Below, in pieces: positions 1 to 4,891 of a DNA stretch of 64,000 nucleotides. This DNA is from an uncultured Lachnospiraceae bacterium. Lineage in GTDB: Bacteria; Bacillota; Clostridia; Lachnospirales; Lachnospiraceae. The stretch spans positions 1-64,000 of the forward strand of contig CANQNN010000010.1 in the NCBI GenBank assembly GCA_947625205.1, given 5' to 3'. Under the pieces are notes generated by a model. It saw only the letters and a list, made by a program, of their open reading frames with translations, was not told the DNA's origin and made no database searches. The translations under genes and the position numbers were made by a program. Position 1 is the stretch's first letter. Every line of letters begins with the position of its first letter.

Positions 1-2
1 AG

Positions 3-48
3 GAAAAGAAAAGAGAAGTTAATATCACGAACAATACTAACTTCTCTA
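3..48 (-). terminator. Rho-independent terminator of the R-M operon
   Basis: A perfect 10-bp inverted repeat (12-21 with 38-47, AGAGAAGTTA) is followed on the minus strand by the T-rich run TTTCTTTTCC. The 3' arm overlaps the stop codon of the endonuclease (46-48). This shows that the endonuclease ends here and is not the front half of a longer gene broken by a nonsense codon. Confidence 0.85.
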
Positions 49-759
49 CTTTAAATCCCTTAACTTAATGCCATTGGACCTTATGATACGGGGGTTTTCT
101 GCGTTGCCAAAGATATATTTATTGAGGATCTGTGTCATATATGATGACTTCAGAGAATATGCTCTCTGTTTTGCTGGCACATTTGAAAACGGCTGCTGAC
201 GAACACTGGCCGCAGTTGCCCCTTTAGTACAAGCAGCGAGATAGAGCGTATCACCTTCGGAAAGTTCGTGTGCCTGTCCGGCACGGATCTTGTTTATAAT
301 AGTCTCCCAATCGTGCTCAATGATAACAAGGTCTTCTTCCGGGAAACTGAATAGAATGACCTCATCGATCCTAAAATCGCCCTTTGTCTTGCCGGCGAGA
401 TGTTCGTAGGACATTAGGAGCATAGTGTTGCACTTATGCCAGAAAGCACTGGTTTGAAAAGTTTTGTCATACTCTTCCATATAATTGATAATATTGCAAA
501 CAAGGCGTTCCTTCGCATGTATACCGTTTCGCCCTCTGGTATAAGGTGTGACTTTTAGTTCTACGCCGGCTTCGGGAAAATCGGGCTCAGATTCAGAATT
601 AGGGGTATAACCAAACCAGCTTTCTTCGATAAGGGTACCAATAGCACCCTTTCCTGTTGCTAAACGGCCTGTGGTATCGATATCGCGAAGCGGGATGCCC
701 TTAACTTCCTGTGCACGTCTTAAAACGGCTTCTTTCGTGGTGTATCTAGTGCCTTTCAT
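46..759 (-). CDS. Sau3AI/MutH-like restriction endonuclease, single-domain form
   Basis: This 237-aa protein has the MutH/Sau3AI-type PD-(D/E)xK fold signature: D60, E67 and K69 in DFPEAGVELK match the D-x6-E-x-K catalytic triad of MutH. The adjacent motif FGYTPNSESEPD is typical of Sau3AI-like enzymes. Sau3AI itself is about twice as long and has a second, non-catalytic MutH-like domain; this protein has only one domain and is followed by a terminator, so it looks complete. The partner C5 methyltransferase lies upstream on the same strand, so the pair should be a Type II system, probably cutting GATC (inference from family). The start is ATG 759 with AAAGGAGGG nine bases upstream. MutH itself is unlikely because no mutS or mutL is near. 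Confidence 0.85.
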   Translation of the reverse strand: MKGTRYTTKEAVLRRAQEVKGIPLRDIDTTGRLATGKGAIGTLIEESWFGYTPNSESEPDFPEAGVELKVTPYTRGRNGIHAKERLVCNIINYMEEYDKTFQTSAFWHKCNTMLLMSYEHLAGKTKGDFRIDEVILFSFPEEDLVIIEHDWETIINKIRAGQAHELSEGDTLYLAACTKGATAASVRQQPFSNVPAKQRAYSLKSSYMTQILNKYIFGNAENPRIIRSNGIKLRDLK

Positions 760-859: not shown

Positions 860-2077
860 TCATTTTTCATCGGCTATTATCTCATCAAGAACTTTTCCCA
901 TCCTTGTTATCATAGGGACGACCAATGCATTACCCATGCAGAAATAGCGCATACGGTCAGGCATCCCGGTATTTGTCCATTCATCATCAAATCCTTGGAG
1001 CCGCTCTGCTTCGACAGGAGTAAGGAGCCTTAATCTGCCAGTCCCTAAGTCTGATACAACATGTGTAGAACGGCTGAGCGTAGATTCGTTAGTCAACATT
1101 GTGCGCCCCGGTTTATTCCACGGGTCGGGAAAGGCAATAGGTCCTTCAGAAAATACATACTTATGGCCGGTGCTAGATGTTCTGGGGATTTTTTTAGCAC
1201 CTTTGAGATAGGTCCACTTTGGCATTTTATCGCCGGGTATGTAGTATTTTTCATCAACATTTTTCTGAAGGATGTCGCCTAATAAACATGGTTTTTCTTC
1301 ATCTTCTAAGACTTTGGAAGTGTATATGATGCCTTGATACATGTAGCCGGCGTTTTCAAACGAAAATGCAAAATTGTCACTGACATCAACGATATCATCA
1401 CTAATAGATGTTTTGAGAATAGGTCCCATTTCTTTAAGGGGAAATGCTTTTGCCATCAAGCCCTTGCTCTCAATAATTTCCTGCGCAGAAATATTCGCCA
1501 TCTTTTCCCGGTATATAGTGTCTTTATGGTAAGCAAATATGAATGTTCGACGTCTACGCTGCGCTGCACCATACTGGGCGGCGTTGACGATACGCCATTC
1601 TACACTATATCCAAGTGCAGATAAACATGCCAAAATAACACCAAAATCGCGACCGCGCTGTTTGGCAGGAGACTTCAAAAGTCTATCAACATTTTCGAAG
1701 ATGCAGAAAGGAGCTTTTTTTGCTATAAGTACATCCCGGATCTGCCACCACAGTACCCCTTTCTTACCTTCGATCCCTTGAGAGGAAGCAAGTGTGTGAG
1801 CTACACTGTAATCCTGGCAGGGAAAGCCTCCTACTAAAAGGGAGTGGTCAGGAATGGTCGACTTATCTACTGAGCCTATGTCTTCGCCTGTATGGTACTC
1901 TCCGTTCATGTCGACACTGTCTCCATAGTGTTGTACATAACATTGATGTGCCCATTGAGTTTTGGCACCAGGCTCCCATTGTGAGAACCATGTAGTTCTC
2001 CAGCCCGTTTCGAGTCGATCAAATCCCAAACGAAATCCACCGACCCCTGCGAAAAGTTCGCAAATCGTTTTTTGCAT
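860..2077 (-). CDS. DNA (cytosine-5) methyltransferase, probably GATC-specific
   Basis: This C5-methyltransferase of about 405 aa protects host DNA from the neighbouring endonuclease. The conserved motifs appear in order: I (ELFAGVGGFRLGF) at the N-terminus, IV (GGFPCQDYSVA) with the catalytic Cys of the PCQ loop, VI (ENVDRLL), VIII (QRRRR), a variable target-recognition region, and X (GNALVVPMI) near the C-terminus. The DYSVA extension after PCQ and the MutH-type partner suggest the Sau3AI specificity GATC with 5-methylcytosine; this is inferred. The ORF track starts at 2110, but AAAGGAGGG lies five bases before ATG 2077, which starts MQKTICELFAG, so 2077 is preferred. It is the first gene of the minus-strand R-M operon, about 100 bp ahead of the endonuclease. 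Confidence 0.92.
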   Translation of the reverse strand: MQKTICELFAGVGGFRLGFDRLETGWRTTWFSQWEPGAKTQWAHQCYVQHYGDSVDMNGEYHTGEDIGSVDKSTIPDHSLLVGGFPCQDYSVAHTLASSQGIEGKKGVLWWQIRDVLIAKKAPFCIFENVDRLLKSPAKQRGRDFGVILACLSALGYSVEWRIVNAAQYGAAQRRRRTFIFAYHKDTIYREKMANISAQEIIESKGLMAKAFPLKEMGPILKTSISDDIVDVSDNFAFSFENAGYMYQGIIYTSKVLEDEEKPCLLGDILQKNVDEKYYIPGDKMPKWTYLKGAKKIPRTSSTGHKYVFSEGPIAFPDPWNKPGRTMLTNESTLSRSTHVVSDLGTGRLRLLTPVEAERLQGFDDEWTNTGMPDRMRYFCMGNALVVPMITRMGKVLDEIIADEK

Positions 2078-2094
2078 AAAGCCCTCCTTTGACT

Positions 2095-2192
2095 GATCAT
2101 CAGCCAGCACGCTTAGTATTTATAGGCCGGGTCTGAGACCCGTATTAGCACCGGCAGACGCCGGATCGTTGGCCTAAATTTTTTAATGGATC
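2095..2192 (-). promoter_or_regulatory. R-M leader with two hairpins and three GATC sites
   Basis: Between the R-M promoter and the methyltransferase start lie two short hairpins, CGGGTC/GACCCG (2128-2142) and CCGGC/GCCGG (2151-2164). Three GATC tetramers occur within 98 bp (2095, 2164, 2189). No T-run follows the hairpins in either direction, so they are not simple terminators. A role in control of the R-M genes is only inferred. Confidence 0.45.
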
Positions 2193-2242: not shown

Positions 2243-2272
2243 AGTATATCATGAAATCATGAAAAAAATCAA
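2243..2272 (-). promoter_or_regulatory. Probable sigma-A promoter of the R-M operon with palindromic spacer
   Basis: On the minus strand TTGATT (2272-2267) and TATACT (2248-2243) are separated by 18 bp. The spacer contains TCATGA-AA-TCATGA, two copies of a 6-bp palindrome, which could be an operator. Transcription would start near 2236, giving a leader of about 160 nt. Confidence 0.6.
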
Positions 2273-2314
2273 TCCTATAGAGGTCGTTTCGCATATTTAA
2301 GATATATTAAAGTT

Positions 2315-2339
2315 ATATTAGACAAGCCATATCTAATAT
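2315..2339 (+). promoter_or_regulatory. Inverted repeat upstream of the recombinase unit
   Basis: ATATTAGA (2315-2322) and TCTAATAT (2332-2339) form a perfect inverted repeat with a 9-bp spacer, 39 bp before the first small ORF. It lies in an A+T-rich stretch and could be an operator or part of the promoter. The remainder of 2193-2377 shows no other gene. Confidence 0.4.
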
Positions 2340-2377
2340 GCTATTTATGAACAAGCTATATCAGGAGGGAAGTAACA

Positions 2378-2518
2378 TTGGAAATTACAAAAAAAGGATC
2401 CGCAAGCTACACTGTTGAAAGAAAGTTTTTAGCGAAGATCTCCGTCGCTGAGTTTGTTAGGCGCATTATTCAGTCCCATATAAAGTATGGAAGTAAGCTG
2501 GAGGATGCCGCCGTATGA
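2378..2518 (+). CDS. Small protein upstream of recombinase (46 aa, TnpW-like pattern)
   Basis: This ORF is absent from the ORF track because it starts with TTG. It is preceded by AGGAGGGA at good spacing (2364-2371). The product has a K-x-G-x-x-x-Y-x-V-x-x-x-F core followed by a short helix with R-R-I-I. That spacing resembles the small TnpW-type proteins found beside serine recombinases in clostridial elements, but the match is made by eye and is weak. Its stop overlaps the start of the next tiny ORF (ATGA), so translation is probably coupled. Its function is unknown. Confidence 0.6.
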   Translation: MEITKKGSASYTVERKFLAKISVAEFVRRIIQSHIKYGSKLEDAAV

Positions 2519-2583
2519 AAAAGACATTGGAAAATTCCCCTGATCATAGTAAAATGTATTCAAGGGAAGTGGTTGAAAGGTAA
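2515..2583 (+). CDS. Tiny coupled ORF (22 aa) before the recombinase
   Basis: An ATG overlaps the stop of the 46-aa ORF by ATGA and opens a 22-codon frame that ends six bases before the recombinase ATG. It has no recognisable domain. Its likeliest role is to carry ribosomes through to the recombinase start, which itself has only a modest GAAAGG site. It may or may not give a stable peptide. Confidence 0.4.
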   Translation: MKKTLENSPDHSKMYSREVVER

Positions 2584-2589
2584 CGTACT

Positions 2590-4185
2590 ATGAAGAAACA
2601 ATTACTTTTCAATGTGGCAGAATATATTAGGTTATCCAGAGAGGACGGCGATAAAGCAGAGAGTGACAGTATCGGAAATCAAAGAAAGCTTATTGCGGAT
2701 TATTTAAAGGACAAAGACGATTTTGTTTTGTATGACACCTATGTTGATGACGGTTTTACAGGAACGAACTTTAAACGGCCTGCATTTATGAGAATGATAG
2801 AGGACATAGAGGCCGGGAATGTTAACTGCGTCATAGTGAAAGATCTATCCAGATTTGGACGTGACTATATCGACACGGGGAAGTATTTGGAACGATACTT
2901 TCCAGATCATGATATACGATTTATATCTATTACGGACAATATCGACAGCATGAAGCAGGCTTATGATATGCTGCTCCCGATAAAGAATATCTTTAACGAG
3001 CAATATGCGAGGGATATTTCAAAGAAAGTCCGTTCGTCCATGAAGGCGAAACAGAAAGCAGGGGAGTTTATCGGAGCTTTCACATCCTATGGATATAAGA
3101 AATCTCCTACAGATAAAAACAAGCTGGTAATTGATAAATATGCTGCCGGAGTCGTTCGTAGAATTTTCCGTATGTATATTAGCGGCCTCGGAAAGAGTAG
3201 CATCGCGTCAGCTTTGAATAAAGAGGGAATTGTCTGTCCTTCTGAATACAAGAAGATGAACGGAGAGAATTACAGAAACAGTCACAAGCTGGAAAGTACC
3301 TCTTACTGGACCTATTCAACGATCAATCGTTTACTGCAGAATGAAATGTATGTCGGAAACATGGTCCAAGGCAGAAAGACACAGCGCATGAGAGGCAAAC
3401 AATATGCGACAGATAAGGATGATTGGATCATTGTAAAAGGCACGCATGAAGCGATTATTGATGAAGATACATGGAACAAAGCGCAGGACTTATTAAAACG
3501 CCGGACGCGTGATCTTGATTTAAACACCAATATGTCGATTTTTGCAGGCTTTATAAAATGTGGAGATTGCGGCAGGTCTTTAGTTAAGAAAGTAGGCACA
3601 CCGGGACATGGCGAGGGGATCATCAACTATTATTGTGGGACTTATGTACGTTCCGGCAGACAGTATTGTACTCCGCACCCTATGCCACATCTGGTTTTGG
3701 AAAAGATCATCCTTGATGATTTGAAAACGATCATACAGAGCGTTGATGATCTTCGGGAGGTAGTCAGAGAGATCTACGCGGCAATAGGAGCAGCAAAGCG
3801 TGTTACAGTTGATGAGAAGAACTGGCTGAACACGGAACTGGAAAAGGTCAGGAAGTTGAAGAAAGCTATTTATGCTGACTACCGGGAAGGACTGATTTCT
3901 AAAGAGGAGTATGTTACATATCGACAGGATCATCTAAAGAAAGAGGAACAGCTGGAAAAGCAGCTTAAGAGTCTGGAGGAAAGACAAGAGTTAGAAACTA
4001 ATACAGATATTTTTGAAACACCGTGGATAAAGCGTTTGGTTGAACTTCGCAGCATAGAAAAGCTGGACAGGGATATTGTAGTGGAAATACTGCATGAAAT
4101 TAAAGTGTATGAGGACCATAAAATCGAGATTACTTACAACTTTTCTGATGAGCTGGCAGCTCTTTTCAAAAGTCAGGTCCCATAG
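2590..4185 (+). CDS. Large serine recombinase (site-specific integrase/excisionase)
   Basis: This 531-aa protein belongs to the large serine recombinase family (TnpX/TndX and phage serine integrases). The N-terminal resolvase domain (about 1-150) has the catalytic serine at S16 in YIRLSRED and the usual VKDLSRFGRDY helix. A recombinase domain follows (about 160-290). A zinc ribbon comes next, with CGDC, YYC and YC cysteines (about 320-365). A charged coiled coil fills about 385-470 and would control synapsis. The enzyme should cut and rejoin att sites with a 2-bp overlap through a serine-DNA intermediate. It ends about 160 bp before the broken cwlD gene, so it is the likely agent of insertion and, with a directionality factor, of excision. 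No excisionase candidate is recognised other than the two tiny upstream ORFs. Confidence 0.93.
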   Translation: MKKQLLFNVAEYIRLSREDGDKAESDSIGNQRKLIADYLKDKDDFVLYDTYVDDGFTGTNFKRPAFMRMIEDIEAGNVNCVIVKDLSRFGRDYIDTGKYLERYFPDHDIRFISITDNIDSMKQAYDMLLPIKNIFNEQYARDISKKVRSSMKAKQKAGEFIGAFTSYGYKKSPTDKNKLVIDKYAAGVVRRIFRMYISGLGKSSIASALNKEGIVCPSEYKKMNGENYRNSHKLESTSYWTYSTINRLLQNEMYVGNMVQGRKTQRMRGKQYATDKDDWIIVKGTHEAIIDEDTWNKAQDLLKRRTRDLDLNTNMSIFAGFIKCGDCGRSLVKKVGTPGHGEGIINYYCGTYVRSGRQYCTPHPMPHLVLEKIILDDLKTIIQSVDDLREVVREIYAAIGAAKRVTVDEKNWLNTELEKVRKLKKAIYADYREGLISKEEYVTYRQDHLKKEEQLEKQLKSLEERQELETNTDIFETPWIKRLVELRSIEKLDRDIVVEILHEIKVYEDHKIEITYNFSDELAALFKSQVP

Positions 4186-4351
4186 GTATTTAACGGATAA
4201 TGCTGTTATGGCGCTATATATCATGGATATAGGCAGCTGAGAAAGACAATATATACAAGCAGAAAGGTGGTGTTAGGCATGACGGCAATAGCAAAACAGA
4301 CAGTAGGATCGCCTGAAATGTTACCGCAACTAATTTCCGCCCCACGGCGGA
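4186..4351 (+). other. Element end and probable attachment-site junction in cwlD
   Basis: The gap between the recombinase stop and the amidase frame holds the element terminus. At the junction lies a perfect inverted repeat, TCCGCC-CCAC-GGCGGA (4336-4351), whose right arm encodes the HGG of the amidase. Serine-integrase sites are imperfect palindromes around a dinucleotide, so the crossover probably lies in or beside this repeat. A 25-codon ORF (4279-4356) with AAAGGTGG upstream crosses the junction in another frame than cwlD; it may be the start of an element gene completed only in the excised circle. The exact core cannot be fixed without the left junction. Confidence 0.6.
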
Positions 4352-4891
4352 GCTGATCCCGGTAAAGTGGGTATAGACGGCAGTCTTGAGAAGGATATCA
4401 ACCTGCGGATAGCGCTGAAGCTGAAGAAATTACTGGAAATGCAGGATGTGGAGGTCGTTCTGACGCGGGATTCCGACAGCGGACTTTACGATGAGAATGC
4501 TTCCAACAAGAAGGTGCAGGACATGAAAAACCGCGTCGCCTTGATCGAGGAGCATCAGCCGTTGCTGACGGTCAGTATCCATCAGAACAGTTATCATGAG
4601 GAGTATGTTCACGGCGCGCAGGTTTTCTATTATGCAAACAGTGAGAAGAGCAAGGAACTGGCGCAGTGTATACAGCGGGTCATAGCGCAGGAAGTGGACC
4701 CGGACAACACCCGACAGGCGAAGGCAAACGACAGTTATTATCTGCTTAAAAAGACTTCTTCGCCCATCGTTATCGTGGAGTGCGGTTTTTTGTCCAATTA
4801 TGAGGAGGCACAGAAGCTGTCGTCGGATCTGTATCAGGAGAAAGTCGCATGGGCGATCCATCTGGCGGTATTGCAGTATCTGAACAGCTGA
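4334..4891 (+). pseudogene. cwlD: CwlD-like N-acetylmuramoyl-L-alanine amidase, 5' end separated by the element
   Basis: This is an Amidase_3 zinc hydrolase that removes the stem peptide from muramic acid; CwlD does so in the spore cortex before delta-lactam formation. The visible frame runs from the HGGADPGKVG zinc motif through the metal-ligand Glu of LEKD, the second His in SIHQN, HGAQVFYY, and the catalytic Glu in VIVECGFLSN. These match CwlD closely in order and spacing. The signal anchor and first beta strand that should precede the HGG motif are missing. The frame instead reads F-P-P back to a stop at 4331. The ORF track start (GTG 4367) is inside the domain and would give an inactive product. 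The rest of the gene appears undamaged, so excision could restore it. The next gene is 35 bp downstream. Confidence 0.85.

Follow-up and report, generated by a model that had tools for sequence, protein, structure and literature searches.

The stretch analysed here, referred to below as the window, is the first 64 kb (64,000 nucleotides) of contig C10 (CANQNN010000010.1) from an uncultured Lachnospiraceae bacterium, whose genome assembly (GCA_947625205.1) comprises 2.9 Mb in 44 contigs. Close to its left end lies the gene for a large serine recombinase of 531 amino acids (aa) (2590-4185, forward strand; PF00239 Resolvase, PF07508 Recombinase, PF13408 Zn-ribbon), followed after a gap of 158 bp by the 3' part of the spore-cortex amidase gene cwlD (4343-4891, forward strand), which starts at the HGG zinc motif and is complete to its stop codon, scores 197 bits against the CwlD model TIGR02883 and is 87% identical to the intact gene of genome G020. 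As an earlier note on this DNA had claimed, the amidase frame begins in mid-domain after a nearby stop: read from 4331 it runs TAA-F-P-P-H-G-G-A-D-P-G-K, with the H codon at 4343 and the stop at 4891, and the partial protein covers positions 9-189 of the 189 in the CwlD profile, lacking the first strand only. In relatives, nearly all of the same genus, cwlD is a single open reading frame (ORF) of ~240-280 aa that reads ...PCVVIDAG-HGGADPGKVG.

An interrupted cwlD whose halves join in silico

The missing 5' part of the gene is present in the same genome. A degenerate DNA pattern for PCVVIDAG has one match there, 3.9 kb into contig C9, where an intact cwlD 5' half (C9:4104-3916, reverse strand; MKKNLRDRD...PRPCVVIDAGHGG|GK*) gives way to foreign DNA directly after HGG. 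Because the genome holds this 5' half of the same gene, the amidase frame that starts at HGG is not a product of chance. Joined in silico, the C9 and C10 halves yield a stop-free protein of 239 aa (MKKNLRD...VVIDAGHGGADPGKVG...) that aligns with positions 3-189 of TIGR02883; its score is 211 bits against a curated cut-off of 221.55, and CwlD is by far the best family. No second CwlD was found in the genome, whose two other Amidase_3 proteins are both not CwlD. We regard it as close to certain that the element is a precise insertion in cwlD and as highly probable that its excision would restore the gene; the evidence for a spore-cortex gene interrupted precisely and reversibly is good. The central claim of the earlier note, of a serine-recombinase element that breaks cwlD precisely at HGG, was borne out: the 5' part and the second attachment site that it proposed to seek are both on C9, the halves join in frame, close relatives keep the gene whole, and neither the second intact cwlD nor the decayed 5' fragment that it named as counter-evidence turned up.

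The attachment (att) sites are consistent with the recombinase type. The element-side arm of attR (TACCGCAACTAATTTCCGCC, 4322-4341, forward strand) pairs at 14 of 20 bases with the attL arm at C9:3930-3911, and the shared core CACGGCGG, which encodes H-G-G, lies at 4343-4350 (forward strand) and is repeated without change over 8 bases at C9:3933-3926. Reconstruction of attP gives a 20-bp dyad, TACCGCAACTAATTTCCGCC-CCAC-GGCGGCGGTAAATAGCGGTA, with 14 of 20 bases symmetric, a degree of symmetry reached at just 2 of 8223 other element positions; as reconstructed, this geometry fits a serine recombinase. We infer that the crossover dinucleotide is the CA at 4343-4344, the first two bases of the His codon and the centre of the dyad. 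A complete attP-like palindrome (TACCGCAAGTTACCGCCGCACCATGGCAGCGGTAACTTGCGG) also occurs 3' of the recombinase in locus L050 (~4690-4730), where it suggests two tandem elements.

The element is divided between the two contigs by an insertion sequence (IS). C10 breaks off in an IS end (window 1-76) whose terminal repeat CTTAACTTAATGCCATTG lies at 59-76 and is found elsewhere only at C9:60-77 and C35:58-75. The same 10-bp flank accompanies the IS on both contigs, as TCATAAGGTC on C9 and as GACCTTATGA in the window (77-86), and represents a target-site duplication. The IS cuts a Sau3AI-type restriction enzyme gene, of which the N-terminal half lies at 46-759 (reverse strand; NF040973 profile 1-232) and the rest at C9:98-757 (profile positions 238-475 of 475). 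Given the shared IS ends, the duplication and the continuous Sau3AI gene, C9 and C10 are neighbours with only an IS copy between them, and the element measures ~8.3 kb without the IS body.

The recombinase and its upstream region

The nearest named relative found for the recombinase is TndX, with 34% identity over nearly the full length, whereas scores against the SCCmec Ccr models (CcrB 137 bits, CcrC 132 bits) fall far below the curated cut-offs of 900 bits. A viral or plasmid origin was rejected, as no recombinase at least 60% identical appears in phage or plasmid records; matches in IMG/VR are only ~32% identical. The gene is preceded by a sigma-A-like promoter, TTGGAA-N17-TAAAAT (2527-2555, forward strand), recognised by consensus only and kept in several relatives. 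Further upstream stands a conserved small ORF of 46 aa with a TTG start (2378-2518, forward strand), whose homologues of 40-50 aa lie directly 5' of the recombinase in nearly all relatives. It is under moderate constraint, with a mean ratio of nonsynonymous to synonymous polymorphism (pN/pS) of 0.30 in the core, and has no Pfam or NCBIfam match. Because its position and size suit such a role, we propose it as a candidate recombination directionality factor. Upstream of it, a footprint with the inverted repeat TATATTAGACAAGCCATATCTAATATG (2270-2376, forward strand) is conserved in both recombinase clades. A SigE promoter for the small ORF was considered but not recognised, since a -35-like CATATT is conserved but no CATA stands at the right distance, and the likeness of GAYAAGC to a SpoIIID box was judged too weak; cwlD itself, unlike the small ORF, carries conserved CATA-type elements. 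In locus L047, a pemK RNA motif (RF02913, 43.7 bits) at 100-160 lies 5' of the small ORF and recombinase.

Recurrence in related genomes

Scanning GTDB genomes with the recombinase yielded 45 loci, in many of which it either directly precedes an Amidase_3 gene that begins at HGG or adjoins a polysaccharide deacetylase broken at FDAAWG|NEDT; one such deacetylase, when rejoined, matches PdaB (TIGR02764, a sporulation protein). In the genus, identity to the query is 47% or higher for 18 recombinase copies and drops to 42% for the next, and all 18 sit in cwlD (2, in G000 and G464) or pdaB (16). Sixteen of these placements come from direct tblastn within the locus and those of G470 and G443 from larger regions (L117 and L116). 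Among the loci that were read, none of the less similar recombinases of the genus sits in cwlD or pdaB; the size of the family as counted here is a minimum. The same anatomy is found on single contigs in L048, L041 (G151) and G464.

The codons at which cwlD is split in the window are also those used in G457, of the same genus, and in at least five other genera (G314, G151, G436, G216 and G145). The cwlD-splitting recombinases of G314 and G151 are just 34-36% identical to that of the window, and unrelated recombinases have arrived at these cwlD codons on separate occasions. G077, considered as a further case of split cwlD, proved false, its frame not breaking at HGG. In the recombinase tree targets are switched, L051 (cwlD) being sister to L052 (pdaB). 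The interpretation of the earlier note was accordingly supported in part: the split of cwlD at HGG stood, but cwlD is not the sole target, the clade sitting mostly in pdaB and its sister clade in other Amidase_3 genes.

Several of these insertions have contents of their own. The 3.0-kb recombinase-free insert at the cwlD HGG of G436 (C54; L042 2688-5715) encodes an XRE regulator and a protein whose C-terminal DNA-binding domain is that of Spo0A (PF08769, 74.6 bits), and the 6.5-kb recombinase-free insert at the same motif in G145 (C60; L095 1290-7866) carries surface-protein and response-regulator genes, one of its genes resembling one of the G436 insert. A complete 3-kb element in the cwlD of G151 (C73; L041 4888-7990) has a 580-aa recombinase of another type, the core GGTCATGGAGG and an apparent PIN-type toxin/antitoxin pair.

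Cargo of the element

Alongside the recombinase and the broken Sau3AI gene, the element of the window carries a Dcm-type C5 cytosine methyltransferase belonging to a restriction-modification set (860-2110, reverse strand; TIGR00675, PF00145), a Vsr endonuclease (on C9), a class I methyltransferase and an unknown protein. The IS, with its 18-bp terminal repeats and 10-bp duplication (window 1-86; L035 1-87), inactivated the Sau3AI gene, and the methylase is intact. The element's 398-aa protein (L035 706-1902), which stands beside Sau3AI and Vsr and has no convincing family match, is possibly a third restriction gene. At the element end lies a decayed RelE-like toxin/antitoxin pair (4186-4321, forward strand), whose remnant reads YLTDNAVMALYIMDIGS and MTAIAKQTVGSPEML and whose counterparts are intact in L048 and G457. 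Profile matching recognised no phage structural or replication gene and no mobilisation gene among the element genes, and an Rfam scan of the window's element region returned no match.

Host sporulation and the case for programmed excision

By its gene content alone the host is probably a spore former, its genome holding SpoIVA above the curated cut-off and an uninterrupted SigK-like gene. Within the genus, SpoIVA is kept in 17 of the 18 genomes whose cwlD or pdaB holds an element (17 with a recombinase in either gene, one of them twice, together with G457), the exception being G008, which is 67% complete. In Clostridioides difficile, SigE controls cwlD in the mother cell, and without the gene germination falls by 2-3 logs (PMC6021603), so a spore-reliant lineage would gain from rejoining the gene. 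Judging from this anatomy and from precedent, we hold it an even call that excision is programmed in sporulation.

Taking the evidence as a whole, the best explanation, which we consider probable by a small measure, is a non-phage element in cwlD that is excised most likely in the sporulating mother cell. In such a model the recombinase element would have integrated site-specifically at the HGG codons of cwlD, which would persist during growth as two open halves. Recombination between attL and attR would remove the element and rejoin the gene without net change, giving the 239-aa CwlD. Removal would most likely take place during sporulation, in the mother cell that makes CwlD, while the forespore would retain the element, by analogy with gin, skin, SPbeta and yin; the small ORF of 46 aa may act as the excision switch. 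Whether one recombinase family has specialised in the genus on cwlD and pdaB, with the elements, whose cargo varies, excised in each sporulating mother cell and the genes rebuilt, is a broader proposition that we find plausible at not quite an even chance. If true, programmed rearrangement of DNA would be a common part of sporulation among gut commensals and not an oddity of a handful of Bacillus and Clostridium strains.

Several observations weigh against mother-cell excision. The rejoined cwlD site is absent from the assembly and the attP pattern of the excised circle is absent from IMG/VR, and for neither the recombinase nor the small ORF could a promoter of the SigE or SigK type be recognised. 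Near-identical recombinases of the sister clade sit both in CwlD and in non-CwlD amidases at the same HGG codons, the latter including SPOR-domain proteins that reach only 74 bits against the CwlD model; because the sister clade enters such amidases, insertion is guided by the motif DNA and can also take place outside spore genes, and the shared att motif appears to explain part of the targeting. Two of the cwlD insertions, those of G436 and G145, have no recombinase inside. Intact gene halves also need not mean selection, because the elements arrived recently: synonymous divergence among three sister species is 4-6% for the recombinases and 17-33% for their pdaB genes, which makes the elements younger than the genes that they split. 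The split-gene pN/pS, from pairwise counts, is close to that of intact genes, but with elements this recent we do not use the low ratio as proof of selection.

An alternative is an ordinary mobile island, a tentative possibility that we place distinctly short of even. In this reading, conserved DNA that encodes the active site (GAYGCNGGNCAYGGNGG in amidases, GAYGCNGCNTGGGG in pdaB) is what the recombinase recognises, growing cells tolerate the insertion since they have no need of the target, and excision is rare and independent of sporulation, leaving cwlD effectively off. Target switching between close recombinases (L051 and L052), entry of the sister clade into non-CwlD amidases, the recent and mobile character of the elements, the sporulation promoter that was not found and the TndX-like relatives, which are transposon recombinases, all agree with it. 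It sits less easily with the confinement of all 18 genus copies to two spore-peptidoglycan genes, with the open state of nearly all target halves examined (L054 is the exception), with split-gene pN/pS near that of intact genes and with retention of SpoIVA by the hosts. We think it very unlikely that the element is an immobile remnant and cwlD permanently dead in this strain: the RelE pair has decayed and an IS sits inside the Sau3AI gene, but the recombinase, the att arms, the small ORF and each half of cwlD remain undamaged, as do SpoIVA and the SigK-like gene. Since the element is not on a single contig in its own genome, the ends of C9 and C10 might be unrelated and cwlD unsplit in the cell; such an assembly artefact is extremely improbable, given that the same IS and 10-bp duplication end both contigs, that the Sau3AI gene runs on across them and that the whole arrangement recurs on single contigs in L048, G464 and G151.

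Comparison with known systems

The element shares with the intervening elements of sporulation genes (skin, SPbeta, vfbin, gin and yin) its own recombinase inside a sporulation gene of which both halves are present, as well as precise att sites and, in silico, a recombination that restores the frame. The papers searched report such elements from sigK, spsM, spoVFB, gerE and yabG, and cwlD or pdaB is named as a target in none of them, subscription literature lying outside the search; amidases and deacetylases are both absent from the main text of a large survey of recombinases (PMC10083194). The novelty of the two targets is provisional. In genome annotation, cwlD and pdaB may look broken though they are possibly rebuilt, and the recombinases form a compact set with predictable att sites.

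Among individual systems, the transposons of the Tn5397/Tn4451 type (TndX, TnpX) have a related recombinase, as the near-full-length TndX match shows, but no mobilisation gene was recognised among the genes of the present element, whose site specificity is for active-site codons in two gene families. In the skin element in sigK of C. difficile, the serine recombinase CD1231 has a sigma-A-type promoter and excision needs a separate small protein, CD1234 (72 aa), controlled by SigE and SpoIIID (PMC5025042). A serine recombinase, its sigma-A-like promoter and the conserved small ORF beside it are the counterparts here, whereas skin is prophage-like and lies in sigK, and no SigE/SpoIIID-type promoter was recognised in our element. 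The gin element in gerE of Bacillus cereus ATCC10987 is likewise non-phage (PMC5595907), and both elements use a serine recombinase, split a mother-cell sporulation gene and have dyad att sites with a short core (9 bp in gin, 8 bp here); they differ in the gene, in the recombinase and in having three recombinases (gin) or one, and excision of the present element is a prediction. The yin prophage in yabG of Clostridium botulinum, reported as unique (PMC10747680), likewise lies within a spore gene that is restored on excision, but the element described here is not a prophage and comes from a widespread group. Earlier elements in sporulation genes were found singly, whereas this one family offers many natural replicates in two further genes; together with the independent hits on cwlD, these make it testable whether such genes are chosen because excision in the mother cell is harmless or merely because the DNA motif is present.
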